From the NCBI RefSeq assembly GCF_014204895.1, contig NZ_JACHMF010000001.1:1736001-1800000 (forward strand): DNA of 64,000 nt. Direction: 5' to 3'. The notes beneath the pieces are model-generated. The model made no database searches. It had not been told where the DNA came from and saw only the letters and a list, made by a program, of their open reading frames with translations. The position numbers were made by a program, and so were the translations under genes. The DNA comes from Paractinoplanes abujensis. Lineage in GTDB: Bacteria; Actinomycetota; Actinomycetes; Mycobacteriales; Micromonosporaceae. Shown here one piece after another: positions 31,835 to 35,826 of this stretch (positions within the stretch are counted from its first letter, which is position 1; every line of letters starts with the position of its first letter).

Positions 31835-32569
31835 TCAGTACTGCCCGGACGGTCCTCGGTAGAGTTCGCCGTCCGGGTAGGGCCACGGGTTCTGCGTGCA
31901 CCCGTGCAGGCCCAAGGTCTGCTGCAGCATGACGGGGCCCCTCTCGCCCTTGCCGGGGCACAGTTCGTGGCCGTGGCCGAGCCGGTGCCCCACCTCATGG
32001 TTGACCATGTATTGCCGGTAACCGCGCAGATTGTTCCGGTAACCCGGCACCCCACCGGCCCAGCGCGCCACGTTGAGCACGACCTTGGCCCCGTTACGGC
32101 ACGACGTGTACCCGTCCGACGCATCCGCGCACAACTCGCCGCGCGTCCCCGGGGTGGCGAGGTAGAGGGTGAAGTCGTATCTGTCGCCCGGCCCGACCCG
32201 CCGGAACCGCCAGTCGCCGCCGCCGGTCCACCCGCGCGGGTCGGCCAGGGTCGCCCCGGCCGCCGCCGCGAACCCGGCCACCGACACGCCCCTGATCTCG
32301 CGTTCCACTACCACGCGGTAACGCATCAGCCGCCCCCGCGTGCCCACGATCTCCGCGGAGGCGGCCGCGGTGACCCACCGCCCGCTCCCACGCCGCGGAA
32401 ACGTGATCTTCGTGGGGCGCGGCTTGACCGGCGGGCTGCTGACCACGAGGGCGGGCCCGCCGGTGACCGGCGGCGGCGCCGGCGCCGGGGTGGCCGCGGT
32501 GGTGCCGCACCCGGCCAGTAACCCGCCCAGGAGCGCCGCCGCCATCCACCCGTACGTTCGCATCGTCAT
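31835..32569 (-). CDS. DUF3152 lipoprotein with metzincin-like zinc motif
   Basis: A 244-residue exported protein. The signal ends in a lipobox, GGLLAGCG, with Cys21 as the lipid anchor, followed by a proline-rich linker. The DUF3152 domain contains VNHEVGHRLGHGHELC, which matches the metzincin pattern HExxHxxGxxH, so a zinc peptidase on the outer membrane face is plausible. Four further cysteines (ELCADASDGYTSC, ELCPG, LHGCTQ) could form disulfides. It converges with the flavoprotein gene 12 bp away and is followed upstream by the ABC-F gene on the same strand. Confidence 0.88.
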   Translation of the reverse strand: MTMRTYGWMAAALLGGLLAGCGTTAATPAPAPPPVTGGPALVVSSPPVKPRPTKITFPRRGSGRWVTAAASAEIVGTRGRLMRYRVVVEREIRGVSVAGFAAAAGATLADPRGWTGGGDWRFRRVGPGDRYDFTLYLATPGTRGELCADASDGYTSCRNGAKVVLNVARWAGGVPGYRNNLRGYRQYMVNHEVGHRLGHGHELCPGKGERGPVMLQQTLGLHGCTQNPWPYPDGELYRGPSGQY

Positions 32570-32657: not shown

Positions 32658-34142
32658 TCAGGCGCGGCGGCCTCCGTCGAGGACCAGCCGGGGCCAGGCT
32701 GACAGGTCCGCCAGCATCTGGCGGTCGTGGGTGGCGATCACGACGGCGGCCGGGGTGGTGGCCAGGGACGCGGTCAGGTCGTCGACCAGGCCGGCCGACA
32801 AGTGGTTGGTCGGTTCGTCGAGCAGGAGCACGTCGGGCCGGCCGTCGAGGACCTCCTCCAGGTGGTGGCGCCGGTGCTGGCCGGGGGACATGCGGGCGGC
32901 CGCCGTGAAGACCTCCTGGGCCAGGTAGCCGACCGTCGCCCCGGAGAGTCGCCGCACCGAGCCCGTCGCCGGTGTCAGCGTGCCCGCCAGGACGGCCAGG
33001 AACGTGGATTTGCCGGCGCCGTTGGGGCCGGTCACCAGCAGGCGGTCGCCGCCGGTCAGACGCAGCCCGTACGGGGTCGGCAGGCGGCCGGTGACGGTGA
33101 TGTCCTGCGCGTCCAGCAGCGGCACACCGGGACGGGTGTCGCTGTCGGGCCACCGCAGCGGGCGCGGCGGCTTCGGCACCGTGATCCGGTGCGCTGCCAA
33201 GGCCTCCTGGCGGCGTTTGACGGCCTGCACGATGCCGGGCGCCCGGCTTTGCCGCTTGTGCCGGCCGGTGCCCTTGTCGGGGCGCCAGCTCGTGCTCAAC
33301 CGCCCGCGGGCTTCCTCGGCCGCGCCGGTCAGCCGCTGATGTTCGGCCACCTGGTTGTCGTACTCCTGCTGCCACTGCTGCCGTTCCCGCCGTTTGGCCT
33401 GCTGCCAGCGGGCATAGCCACCCGCGTACAGGCGGGGCCGGCCGTCGGGGGTGGGGTCGAGGTCGAGGAACTCGGCGGCCACGTCGCGCAGCAGCGCCCG
33501 GTCGTGCGTGACGACCAGGACGCCGCCGGGGTGGTGCCGCAGCCGCTCGGTCAGGAACGTGAGCCCGGCCGCGTCGAGGTGGTTGGTCGGCTCGTCCAGC
33601 AGCAGCAGGTCGTGGTGCGCGCCGAGCACACAGGCCAGCCGTACGCGGTAACGCTGGCCCACCGACAGCGTGTCCAGCCGCCGGGCCCGGTCGGTGCACG
33701 CGTCGAGCGCTTCCAGGGCCACGTCGACGCGCCGCTGCGCGTCCCACGCGTCCAGCCGGGTGGCCGTGTCGAGTGCCTTCTCGTACGAGCCGGGGTCTTC
33801 TTCGATCGTCGCCAGTGCCGCGTCGAGGCCGGCCAGGGCGTGCAGCGAGGGCTGGAGGGCCTGGTCGACGAGGGTGCCGACGGTCTCGCCGGCTTCGGCG
33901 GGCAGGGCCTGCTCGGCCACGCCGATCGTGCCCGCGCGGTGCACGCGGCCCTCATCGGGTGGGGCCAGCCCGGCCAGCACCCGCAGCAGGGTCGTCTTGC
34001 CGCTGCCGTTGCGGCCGACCACGGCCAGGCGGGAGCGGGCCGACACGGTGACGTCGACGCCGTCGAGGACGACGCGGTCGCCCCGCACGACGCGCACGGC
34101 CTCAGCCCGTACGTGGGAATGGGTGTTCTCGAGAATGGTCAC
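32658..34142 (-). CDS. ABC-F family ATPase, antibiotic resistance (ribosome protection) type
   Basis: A 494-residue protein with two ABC domains and no membrane helices. Domain 1 has Walker [11 protein letters not shown], signature LSVGQRYRV and Walker [13 protein letters not shown]; domain 2 has [20 protein letters not shown] and [11 protein letters not shown]. The linker between them ([20 protein letters not shown] to [18 protein letters not shown]) is the long helical hairpin that reaches the ribosomal peptidyl-transferase centre in ARE-ABC-F proteins. It probably dislodges macrolide, lincosamide or similar drugs. GTG 34142 ([15 protein letters not shown]) is preferred; GTG 34190 would add 16 residues. 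A leader ORF with MRLR lies upstream. Confidence 0.88.
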
Positions 34143-34154
34143 GGGTCTGCTCTC

Positions 34155-34258
34155 GGCTCGTCTGGTGAGCCGGGCAGCGCTGATCGGCACCGCCCGGACA
34201 GGAACGCCAGGACGGCGGTGCAGAAGCTGTGGACAGAAAGTGAGCTCCAGCCGCCGTC
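34155..34258 (-). promoter_or_regulatory. Candidate attenuator between leader peptide and ABC-F gene
   Basis: On the minus strand, GACGGCGG (34251-34258, overlapping the leader stop) can pair perfectly with CCGCCGTC (34211-34218). Next, CCGGGC (34192-34197 side) pairs with GCCCGG (34170-34175), and GGCTC (34167-34171) with GAGCC (34155-34159). The last two stems share bases 34170-34171 and so exclude each other. This is the layout expected for drug-controlled attenuation. Confidence 0.5.
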
Positions 34259-34301
34259 AGCGGCCGGAACGCAACCTCATCGAGGCGATGCCGGTGAACA
34301 T
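34257..34301 (-). CDS. Leader peptide MFTGIASMRLRSGR with macrolide-arrest motif
   Basis: A 14-codon ORF located 115 bp before the ABC-F gene on the same strand. Residues 8-11 are MRLR (34280-34269), the same arrest motif found in the ErmDL leader (MTHSMRLR) that stalls the ribosome when a macrolide is bound. A GATAAT -10 element lies about 40 bp upstream. A stalled ribosome would cover the first arm of the hairpin at 34251-34258. The ribosome site is weak. The assignment is inferred from motif and position. Confidence 0.5.
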   Translation of the reverse strand: MFTGIASMRLRSGR

Positions 34302-34340
34302 GGCGGCAAGGTTAGCCGACAGCCCGCGGCGGCGCCGGTG

Positions 34341-34346
34341 ATTATC
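34341..34346 (-). promoter_or_regulatory. -10 element for leader/ABC-F transcript
   Basis: GATAAT (ATTATC on the plus strand) matches the -10 consensus in five of six positions and would start transcription near 34334, about 33 bp before the leader ATG. A clear -35 is not visible; it would fall at about 34364-34369, just upstream of the divergent hydrolase gene. Confidence 0.4.
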
Positions 34347-34416
34347 CGGCGGGCCGGTTGTGAAGACCTCGCGCAGATCCCGGTCGATCGACGGCGGTGA
34401 CGATACGGTCCGGGGC

Positions 34417-35826
34417 GTGAGATTCGCCCGGCGGTGGTTGCCGTCCCTGCTCGCGCTGATCGCTGTGACCGTCGGCGGCCTGCTGCTGAGCCGTTTCCCG
34501 GACGCCGAGCACGTGGTGGTCGACGGGGTGCCGCTCGAGGTGATGCGGCCCGGCGGTTCCCCGTCCGGGCCCGGTGTGGTGGTGGCGCACGGGTTCGCAG
34601 GCTCGGCCCGGTTGATGCGGCAGTTCGGCGACACCCTGGTCGCGCGCGGCTACACCGTGGTCCTGCCCGACTTCGACGGTCACGGCGCGAGCACCCGCGA
34701 ACCGGTCGACCTGCAGCACGACCTGGACGTGGCGGTGACCTACCTGCGGTCGCTGCCGGGTGTCGACGCGTCGCGGATCGCGCTGGTGGGGCATTCGATG
34801 GGCGCGACCGCGGTGACGGCCTACGCCGTCGCCCACCCCGAGATCACCGCCACCGTGGCCCTTTCCCTGCCCGGCGCCGGCCAGGTGACGCCGGCCCGGC
34901 CGGCCCGCCTGCTCCTGCTGGTGGGGCAGCTCGAGTTCCCCGGCTTCCACCGGAGCGTCACGCAGGCCATGCGGGGCGCGGGCAGTGACCGGCGGTCCGC
35001 CAGCGTCGCCGCCACCGAGCACATCTCGATCCTGTACGCGGCCCGGGCGCACCGGCTGACCGCGGACTGGATCGACGCCGCGTTCGGGCGTGCCGCCGCC
35101 GCGACCGAGCCACCGTCCCCGCTGCGCCGGCTGGCCTCGGCCGGCCTGCTGATGCTGGGCCTGCTGGCCGGGTTCCCCGCCGTCGTCCGGCTGCTGCTGG
35201 GCCGGCCGAGCCGGTTGCCGCCCCACCCCGCCGCCGCTCCGGGCCGCGCCGCCGTAGTCGTCGTGGCCGCTGCGATACCGGCGGTGTTCGTCGCGCCGCT
35301 GCTCCCGACGAACCGCCTGGAACTCGGCGGCTACGCGGGCGGCTTCGCCGCGCTGATGGGCGTCGCGATCCTGGCCTGCCTGCGCCGCGTCCGCTCCCCG
35401 GGCGGTGGGTCGCGCCCGCTGCTCGTGGCACTGCTGGTGATCCCGTACGCCGCGGCTGCGATCGCCGTGCCGCTGCAGCTCGGCTTCACCCAGGCCGTCC
35501 CGGTCGGCCCCCGCTGGTGGCTGCTGCTCGTCGTGTGGCTCGGTTTCGCCCTGCTGGCCTACGCCACCGGCCTGCTGTCGGGCCGCTTGCGGGGCGACCT
35601 GCTCGTGGCCGTGGTAGCGGTGTGCGCCCTGACCGCGGGCTCCGTGGCCGGGCTGGCCTCCGGCTTCCTGGTGCTGGTGGTGCCGCTGCTGGCCGTGCTG
35701 ATGGTGATCCAGGCCGGGCTGTCGGCGGCGCTGCGGTGCGGCGGCGCGCCGCAGTGGCTGGTCGCCCTGACCGGCTCGATCCTGGTGGCCTGGCCGATCG
35801 CGACGACGCTGCCGATCGCCGTCTGA
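34417..35826 (+). CDS. Alpha/beta hydrolase fused to a polytopic membrane domain
   Basis: About 469 residues. An N-terminal helix (RRWLPSLLALIAVTVGGLLL) anchors an extracytoplasmic or membrane-facing alpha/beta hydrolase: VVVAHGFAGSARLM, VVLPDFDGHGAST and nucleophile LVGHSMGATAV (GxSxG), with the His probably in VAATEHISILY. From about residue 230 six or seven hydrophobic helices follow, with no family I recognise. The fusion suggests a membrane ester or lipid substrate. GTG 34417 is preferred because VRFARRW begins there and TACGGT sits 7 bp before it as in a leaderless transcript; ATG 34360 is an in-frame alternative. Confidence 0.8.
   Translation: MRFARRWLPSLLALIAVTVGGLLLSRFPDAEHVVVDGVPLEVMRPGGSPSGPGVVVAHGFAGSARLMRQFGDTLVARGYTVVLPDFDGHGASTREPVDLQHDLDVAVTYLRSLPGVDASRIALVGHSMGATAVTAYAVAHPEITATVALSLPGAGQVTPARPARLLLLVGQLEFPGFHRSVTQAMRGAGSDRRSASVAATEHISILYAARAHRLTADWIDAAFGRAAAATEPPSPLRRLASAGLLMLGLLAGFPAVVRLLLGRPSRLPPHPAAAPGRAAVVVVAAAIPAVFVAPLLPTNRLELGGYAGGFAALMGVAILACLRRVRSPGGGSRPLLVALLVIPYAAAAIAVPLQLGFTQAVPVGPRWWLLLVVWLGFALLAYATGLLSGRLRGDLLVAVVAVCALTAGSVAGLASGFLVLVVPLLAVLMVIQAGLSAALRCGGAPQWLVALTGSILVAWPIATTLPIAV

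Follow-up and report, generated by a model that had tools for sequence, protein, structure and literature searches.

A conserved leader with an ErmDL-like arrest motif upstream of an ABC-F gene in Paractinoplanes abujensis: a probable leaderless attenuator of the macrolide type

The locus and its features

The window analysed in this study (the whole stretch of DNA, 64,000 nucleotides) belongs to an Actinoplanes-type genome of 9.33 Mb which consists of one contig. Its minus strand carries an ABC-F gene (34142-32658) that is preceded by a short leader open reading frame (uORF, 34301-34257). This 14-codon uORF containing MRLR, already described in a first-pass annotation, is indeed present and reads MFTGIASMRLRSGR up to its stop codon, from which 114 nt lead to the GTG of the ABC-F gene at 34142. 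The leader is real and conserved across orthologous loci, where it occurs in two classes, A and B. The features of the locus are:

34341..34346, minus strand: AT-rich box GATAAT, probably of the WblC/WhiB7 type, at the AT peak of class A and class B promoters
34332..34337, minus strand: -35 position CGGCGC, a poor match, 3 bp after the AT-rich box and with a 17-bp spacer to the -10
34309..34314, minus strand: -10 hexamer TAACCT (TANNNT), 7 nt before the leader ATG
34301..34302, minus strand: predicted transcription start, from the spacing of WblC promoters
34257..34301, minus strand: leader uORF MFTGIASMRLRSGR with its stop codon (translation of the window)
34269..34280, minus strand: MRLR codons ATG AGG TTG CGT
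34269..34274, minus strand: predicted P site TTG (34274-34272) and predicted A site CGT (34271-34269), from the geometry of the motif
34260..34267, minus strand: segment 1, 5′ arm of the stop-codon hairpin, pairing with 34254-34247
34247..34254, minus strand: 3′ arm of the stop-codon hairpin, pairing with segment 1
34251..34258, minus strand: segment 2, GACGGCGG, predicted as the first nucleotides that a ribosome stalled at MRLR leaves free
34211..34218, minus strand: segment 3, CCGCCGTC, complement of segment 2
34188..34199, minus strand: segment 4, GTCCGGGCGGTG, pairing with segment 5
34172..34179, minus strand: segment 5, CGCTGCCC, pairing with segment 4
34167..34171, minus strand: segment 6, GGCTC, pairing with segment 7
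34154..34159, minus strand: segment 7, GAGCCG, pairing with segment 6 and adjoining the ribosome-binding site
34150..34154, minus strand: putative Shine-Dalgarno sequence (SD) GAGAG, 7 nt before the GTG
32658..34142, minus strand: ABC-F ATPase gene, GTG start, 494 aa, ABC_tran match

The curated cut-offs for resistance ABC-F proteins are not reached by the product: the best NCBIfam model (NF000355, ribo_prot_ABC_F) gave 284.7 bits at a cut-off of 380, and the TlrC/CarA/OleB/SrmB model gave 284.1 bits at a cut-off of 800. The relatives P0060, P0035 and L144, the latter with a class B leader, likewise stay below the cut-offs of both models. We infer that the product is a resistance factor which guards ribosomes. 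Among the named protein relatives (best 120 of 2308), Actinoplanes and Paractinoplanes come first, followed by Micromonospora, Plantactinospora, Streptomyces and others. Relative to P0060, some 45 residues are missing from the second ABC domain of the protein, in the stretch from the Q-loop region to the signature, and several ABC-F relatives from the genus are about equally short (481-493 aa). A gene for a DUF3152 protein (31835-32569, minus strand) follows on the same strand, 88 bp after the ABC-F gene.

Occurrence of the leader in orthologous loci

An ABC-F ortholog (E <= 1e-120) was found in 38 of 60 genomes of the genus. The genus loci comprise 30 from a first search, seven that were fetched later and one (L184) that was found through a match of an RNA model; L112, with the gene at the contig start, and L010, with its upstream region cut off, were left out of leader scoring. 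All 37 genus loci with upstream sequence carry a uORF of the leaderless type, 26 of class A and 11 of class B, one of the latter (MAYQIYL-stop) being assigned by eye. The working set for most analyses combined genus loci, loci from wider searches and L009, without L184 and the seven later-fetched loci. It amounts to 75 scanned and 73 distinct loci (L126 equals L128 and L124 equals L137); for L103 and L114, whose match starts within the gene, the scan was shifted upstream. A short uORF starting 6-7 nt after a TANNNT hexamer is present in 72 of the 73 distinct loci (74 of 75 scanned), and these 72 leaders split into 39 of class A and 33 of class B. The sole exception is L130, in which a TATCGT hexamer lies six nt before the apparent start of the ABC-F gene itself. 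Any uORF with such a start was seen in only 0.84% of 7500 dinucleotide shuffles, which rules out a chance origin. The class A pattern appeared in 0.013% and the class B pattern in 0% of these shuffles, both patterns having been written after viewing the same loci. As a held-out check, all seven later-fetched loci contained one such uORF, six strictly of class B and the seventh reading MAYQIYL-stop.

A scan of named genomes gave 80 loci, and the upstream regions of 14 of them were inspected. Only L009 (Nesterenkonia) carries a class A leader, and by inspection the other 13 upstream regions contain neither leader class. A search of the 60 genus genomes with the RNA model R1, run with strict filters that lose weak matches, yielded 27 strong matches (E <= 2.8e-15), 25 of which are the genus loci that formed part of the basis of the model. 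The two new ones, in G005 and G055, also lie before an ABC-F gene (judged by eye in G005). Of 13 weak matches 12 were inspected, and one of them, before a kinase gene, looks real. Other very short uORFs behind -10-like hexamers (MKS-stop, MKL-stop and MFTLR-stop) were noticed by eye at the distant ABC-F genes L014 (Arthrobacter), L016 (Catellatospora) and L017 (Corynebacterium).

Promoter and leaderless start

WblC promoters of Streptomyces coelicolor are composed of a GAAAWY box, 3 bp, the -35, a spacer of 16-19 bp and TANNNT, with most transcription starts 7 or 8 bp after the -10 (PMC7157823). The promoter in the window has the same layout (3 bp, 17 bp and TANNNT) and differs in its box, which is GATAAT. 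This GATAAT had been taken for the -10 in the first-pass annotation; as it precedes the -35 position by 3 bp, like the boxes of WblC promoters, it is more likely an AT-rich box, and the conserved -10 is TAACCT at 34314-34309. Across the promoters the AT fraction peaks at -32 to -28 from the -10, with 0.69-0.82 in class A (n = 39) and 0.48-0.73 in class B (n = 33), compared to 0.05-0.51 and 0.03-0.64, respectively, at the other positions from -60 to -1. A strict AAWW within -36 to -20 is contained in only 34 of the 72 promoters. Judged by its layout, the promoter is probably activated by WblC/WhiB7. Six genes of the WhiB family are present in the host genome, of which one (L179) encodes GVWGG and a tail, KRPRGRPRK, that resembles an AT hook and may therefore encode WhiB7/WblC.

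Between the -10 and the leader start lie 7 nt in 34 class A loci and 6 nt in the other five; in class B, 27 loci have 6 nt and six have 7 nt. With the spacing of WblC promoters, transcription would be expected to start at 34302 or 34301, directly at the leader ATG. A uORF beginning 6-7 nt after TANNNT therefore suggests that the leader is probably translated from a leaderless transcript.

Leader classes and the arrest motif

All 39 class A leaders, which are 11-19 residues long, end with [RK]-X-[R/W], exactly three further residues and a stop codon that is TGA throughout, while their N-termini vary. Across the ortholog upstream regions, whose comparison had been proposed for examining the MRLR motif, the distance from the motif to the stop codon is fixed in class A. 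It had been considered unusual to find MRLR in front of an actinobacterial ABC-F gene, but within this orthologous group one clade regularly carries it or a +X(+/W) variant (39 of 72 leaders). Including the preceding residue, the motif is MRLR in 13 leaders, QKVR in six, and LKPW, MKPW and MRIR in two each; the 14 singletons are MRLW, LRLR, VRIR, MRTR, MRMR, QRIR, MRPW, RKLW, QKIR, MKPR, MRPR, PRLR, AKPW and RRLR. Strictly +X(+) are 31 leaders, and eight have Trp at the A site. Inverse toeprinting with erythromycin defined the arrest classes +X(+), XP(X), +X(W) and XP(W), of which +X(W) is known from the screen of an in vitro library (PMC6238534). Compared by class and not by a score for each triplet, all 39 class A leaders fall within +X(+) or +X(W), some of them also within XP(X) or XP(W). 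The 33 class B leaders (e.g., MHLYFL-stop and MQYLYFL-stop) are short, hydrophobic and MsrDL-like.

For ErmDL, the +X+ motif is essential for arrest with telithromycin, which is abolished by any change except to Lys and relieved by Trp at position 8, while with erythromycin positions 6 and 8 tolerate almost any residue and Ser4 matters, only Ser, Ala or Gly being allowed there (PMC8298421). At the place equivalent to Ser4, class A leaders contain Ser in 18, Ala in two and Phe in 14 of 39 cases; the leader in the window has Ser. As 31 leaders keep the +X+ that is needed for telithromycin but not for erythromycin, a ketolide-like inducer appears as likely as erythromycin.

A second related attenuator was noticed in the same genome (G000:C1:4331854-4331983, minus strand; L181/L194). 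Its uORF MGCFACMQIRSAA (TATGGT, 6 nt, ATG), with three codons from Arg to the TGACGGCGG stop, precedes a gene for a 566-aa kinase with a weak APH(6) match and AAA_33. Its 73% relative in G033 (L196) has the uORF MGCFACMQIRFTA. As Gln stands in place of the basic residue, the kinase-gene uORF is not of the +X(+) type. Upstream of 12 scanned out of 29 places, such a uORF was present in two (G000 and G033) and absent in ten.

RNA segments, covariation and folding

The RNA segments were compared in an alignment of 38 class A attenuators (A1), from which L009, with no segment 7 found, was left out. A stem at the leader stop and mutually exclusive pairings downstream of it, both proposed earlier, were found again (34267-34260 pairs with 34254-34247), and the stems are conserved. 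GACGGCG, which starts inside the leader stop codon and belongs to segment 2, is invariant (38/38), and CGCCGTC in segment 3 occurs in 36 of 38 sequences; the two others, L100 and L155, retain a G-U pair, such that the seven standard pairs between segments 2 and 3 are kept in 38/38. Segments 6 and 7 pair in 37-38 of 38 sequences per base pair. Together, helices 2:3 and 6:7 reach 99.0% paired cells in the 38 sequences versus 30.8-52.9% for slid versions. The evidence from covariation is overall modest. Segments 2, 3, 4 and 5 are nearly invariant; helix 6:7 shows one compensatory change from C-G to T-A (L132), and both sides are changed in 6 and 15 sequences for the RNAalifold extension pairs 26-58 and 27-57, respectively. 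In L132-L134, hairpin 1:2 is preserved in a different register and formed by other bases. In one register it is only 75% paired (85.6% for 1:2 and 4:5 together), and for hairpins 1:2 and 4:5 in A1 a +1 slide yields as many changes on both sides (27 vs 24).

The front edge of the ribosomal footprint was taken as P site +15, here 34259. Constrained folding of the 38 related sequences was used to model the accessibility of six bases beside the SD, starting one base after segment 7. Their mean unpaired probability is 0.219 in the free RNA, 0.423 with a ribosome stalled at the motif and 0.212 with a ribosome at the stop codon; in counts uncorrected for kinship, the stalled state is more accessible than the free one in 34 of 38 sequences and than the stop state in 37 of 38. 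Among 15 ribosome positions (-6 to +8 codons) the maximum lies at the motif; at the codon before it the value is 0.409, at the first codon after it 0.309 and at the second 0.218. In class B, for which an SD could be assigned in 31 of 33 cases, a stall at the stop codon lifts the mean from 0.084 to 0.312 in the folding, with an increase in 28 of 31. In silico, a stall would thus free the ribosome-binding site through mutually exclusive stems. It had also been proposed that a stalled ribosome blocks the hairpin at 34251-34258. A ribosome stalled at the motif would cover the 5′ arm of the stop-codon hairpin and leave 34258-34251 itself free to pair with 34218-34211. The helix of the OFF state is diffuse, with best pairs at about 0.2-0.3 in several registers and no single conserved pairing. 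The idea that hairpin 6:7 by itself locks the SD is weakened, as the SD lies beside the hairpin and the OFF pairing is diffuse.

With the same sensor, the output could also be premature transcription termination at hairpin 4:5 or 6:7, either without a U-run or through Rho. Several ABC-F leaders and, based on a transcription reporter in which tiaA was constitutive, Streptomyces are5sc have been reported as transcriptional attenuators (PMC12421871), and hairpin 4:5 is predicted in all three folding states. Yet, precisely because it is predicted with and without a stall, 4:5 does not seem to switch, whereas the region beside the SD is altered by a stall in the folding. Moreover, a scan of 33900-34700 revealed no terminator-like site (0 sites) and hence no intrinsic terminator with a U-run before the ABC-F gene. 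Termination is therefore an unlikely output, and control is more likely translational. Rfam yielded no family for the leader; the only match in 33900-34700 is below threshold (E 0.38) and lies elsewhere.

Codon usage at the motif

Rare codons stand directly before the arrest codon (34277-34272 in the window). The first basic codon of class A leaders is AGG in 24, AAG in 14 and CGC in one of 39 cases, although AGG makes up 1.9% of the Arg codons in class A ABC-F genes, and TTG is used at 15 of 18 Leu codons at X versus 5.1% in these genes. Both preferences would fit a leader that senses charged Arg/Trp-tRNA or slow translation, pausing at rare AGG and TTG without contact to a drug. This appears improbable, as the A-site codon is CGN or TGG and never AGG, the first basic residue can be either Arg or Lys, and the related class B has neither motif, but an MsrDL-like hydrophobic end. 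Over the last ten codons the third position shows no excess of differences (3148, 2953 and 2187 at positions 1, 2 and 3), and much third-base variation within the arrest motif is confined to the X and A-site codons. The missing excess and the near invariance of segments 2 to 5 could point to a structured RNA or protein-binding element with an untranslated uORF, but this is the least probable explanation, given a start codon that both classes hold 6-7 nt after the -10, a constant frame and three-codon spacing despite variable N-termini, the use of CGC, CGT, CGG and CGA for Arg at the A site, and a different peptide at the same position in class B.

Proposed mechanism

The motif or a close variant of it, its distance to the stop codon and the hairpins are all kept in relatives, which makes a macrolide switch probable. 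The preferred reading, to which we assign a probability of roughly 0.8, is a probably leaderless and probably WblC-driven translational attenuator of the macrolide type that controls the ABC-F gene. The leader would switch on a gene of the ribosome-protection type when a macrolide-type antibiotic jams the ribosome, as also supposed in the first-pass annotation and supported by conservation and folding. The uORF would be translated from the first nucleotide of a transcript whose promoter is probably activated by WblC/WhiB7. Without drug, either the ribosome would reach the TGA and cover both segment 1 and segment 2, or hairpin 1:2 at the stop codon would re-form; segment 3, being free, would then pair near the ribosome-binding site of the ABC-F gene and hide it. 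A drug of the macrolide type in the exit tunnel would arrest the ribosome when Leu10 occupies the P site and Arg11 the A site, so that the front edge of the ribosome comes to lie at the T of the leader stop codon and segment 1 is covered. The exposed segment 2 (GACGGCGG) could then pair with segment 3 (CCGCCGTC) and open the ribosome-binding site. The ABC-F factor would be made and protect ribosomes.

If drug stalling is true, the class A leaders represent a large natural series of macrolide-arrest peptides, restricted to R/K-X-R/W and varied by evolution instead of by a library. One short promoter-leader would join activation of the WblC type, leaderless translation and ribosome stalling. It would also allow the change of a drug sensor to be studied in a resistance gene and draw attention to leaderless uORFs as possible attenuators.

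Evolution of the two classes

A quick tree of 72 ABC-F proteins and three outgroup rows places class A in one clade (SH-aLRT 100). On the best tree this clade is nested in class B, which is thereby paraphyletic, and as class B surrounds class A the tree suggests that A arose from B. However, the branch that unites class A with part of class B has a support of 82, and the well-supported branches are compatible with class B as a single sister group. Arg and Trp at the A site require six changes by parsimony on the ABC-F tree. Proline at X is found in six of eight Trp leaders versus two of 31 Arg leaders, an association for which five supported independent pairs gave a median p of 0.25 in a sign test. 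As Trp at position 8 of ErmDL relieves the arrest by telithromycin while the arrest by erythromycin is tolerant there, Trp leaders might miss ketolide-type drugs. A tentative joint reading, whose chances we rate below even, is that the sensor changed once, probably from an MsrDL-like block of release to an ErmDL-like +X(+/W) block of elongation, with the leaderless WblC-type promoter being kept, and that Trp leaders are blind to ketolides while Arg leaders are broad sensors which respond to ketolides as well. If this holds true, the leader peptide records which macrolides each species meets.

Comparison with known systems

With ErmDL, the leader of ermD, the window leader shares the RLR arrest motif, in which X occupies the P site and Arg the A site, and even SMRLR (MTHSM followed by RLR, according to the primer names in PMC8298421). 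As in attenuators of the ErmDL type, +X(+) is in frame and its position relative to the switching stems is fixed. The window leader differs in that it is predicted to be leaderless, has hairpins of its own and precedes an ABC-F gene instead of an Erm methyltransferase gene, and in that the natural variants of class A extend to KPW and RLW. As the downstream gene encodes an ABC-F protein, the leader would act in the manner of ErmDL without being an erm attenuator.

MsrDL (MYLIFM-stop), the leader of msrD, is likewise a macrolide-responsive leader of a macrolide ABC-F gene, and class B leaders such as MHLYFL-stop and MQYLYFL-stop resemble it by sequence and also end at the stop codon. MsrDL, however, acts through a Rho-independent terminator (PMC10314930), and the arrest motif of class A is a different one. 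For Streptomyces are5sc and tiaA and for Clostridium cplR, uORFs are also tied to ABC-F attenuation, but their leaders are MLV, MVGDDDISG and MRI (PMC12421871, PMC10201436).

In the open-access literature searched, a body that mostly excludes subscription papers, none of six leader peptides occurred. Likewise, the matches listed for open literature on ABC-F proteins, leader peptides, leaderless mRNA, WblC, macrolides and Actinoplanes, screened by title and the start of the abstract, contained no report of these leaders. The pikR and tlrC leaders of macrolide producers may be relatives. In our judgement, the attenuator belongs to a known kind, the macrolide leader attenuators, of which it represents a new, probably leaderless and probably WblC-driven form.
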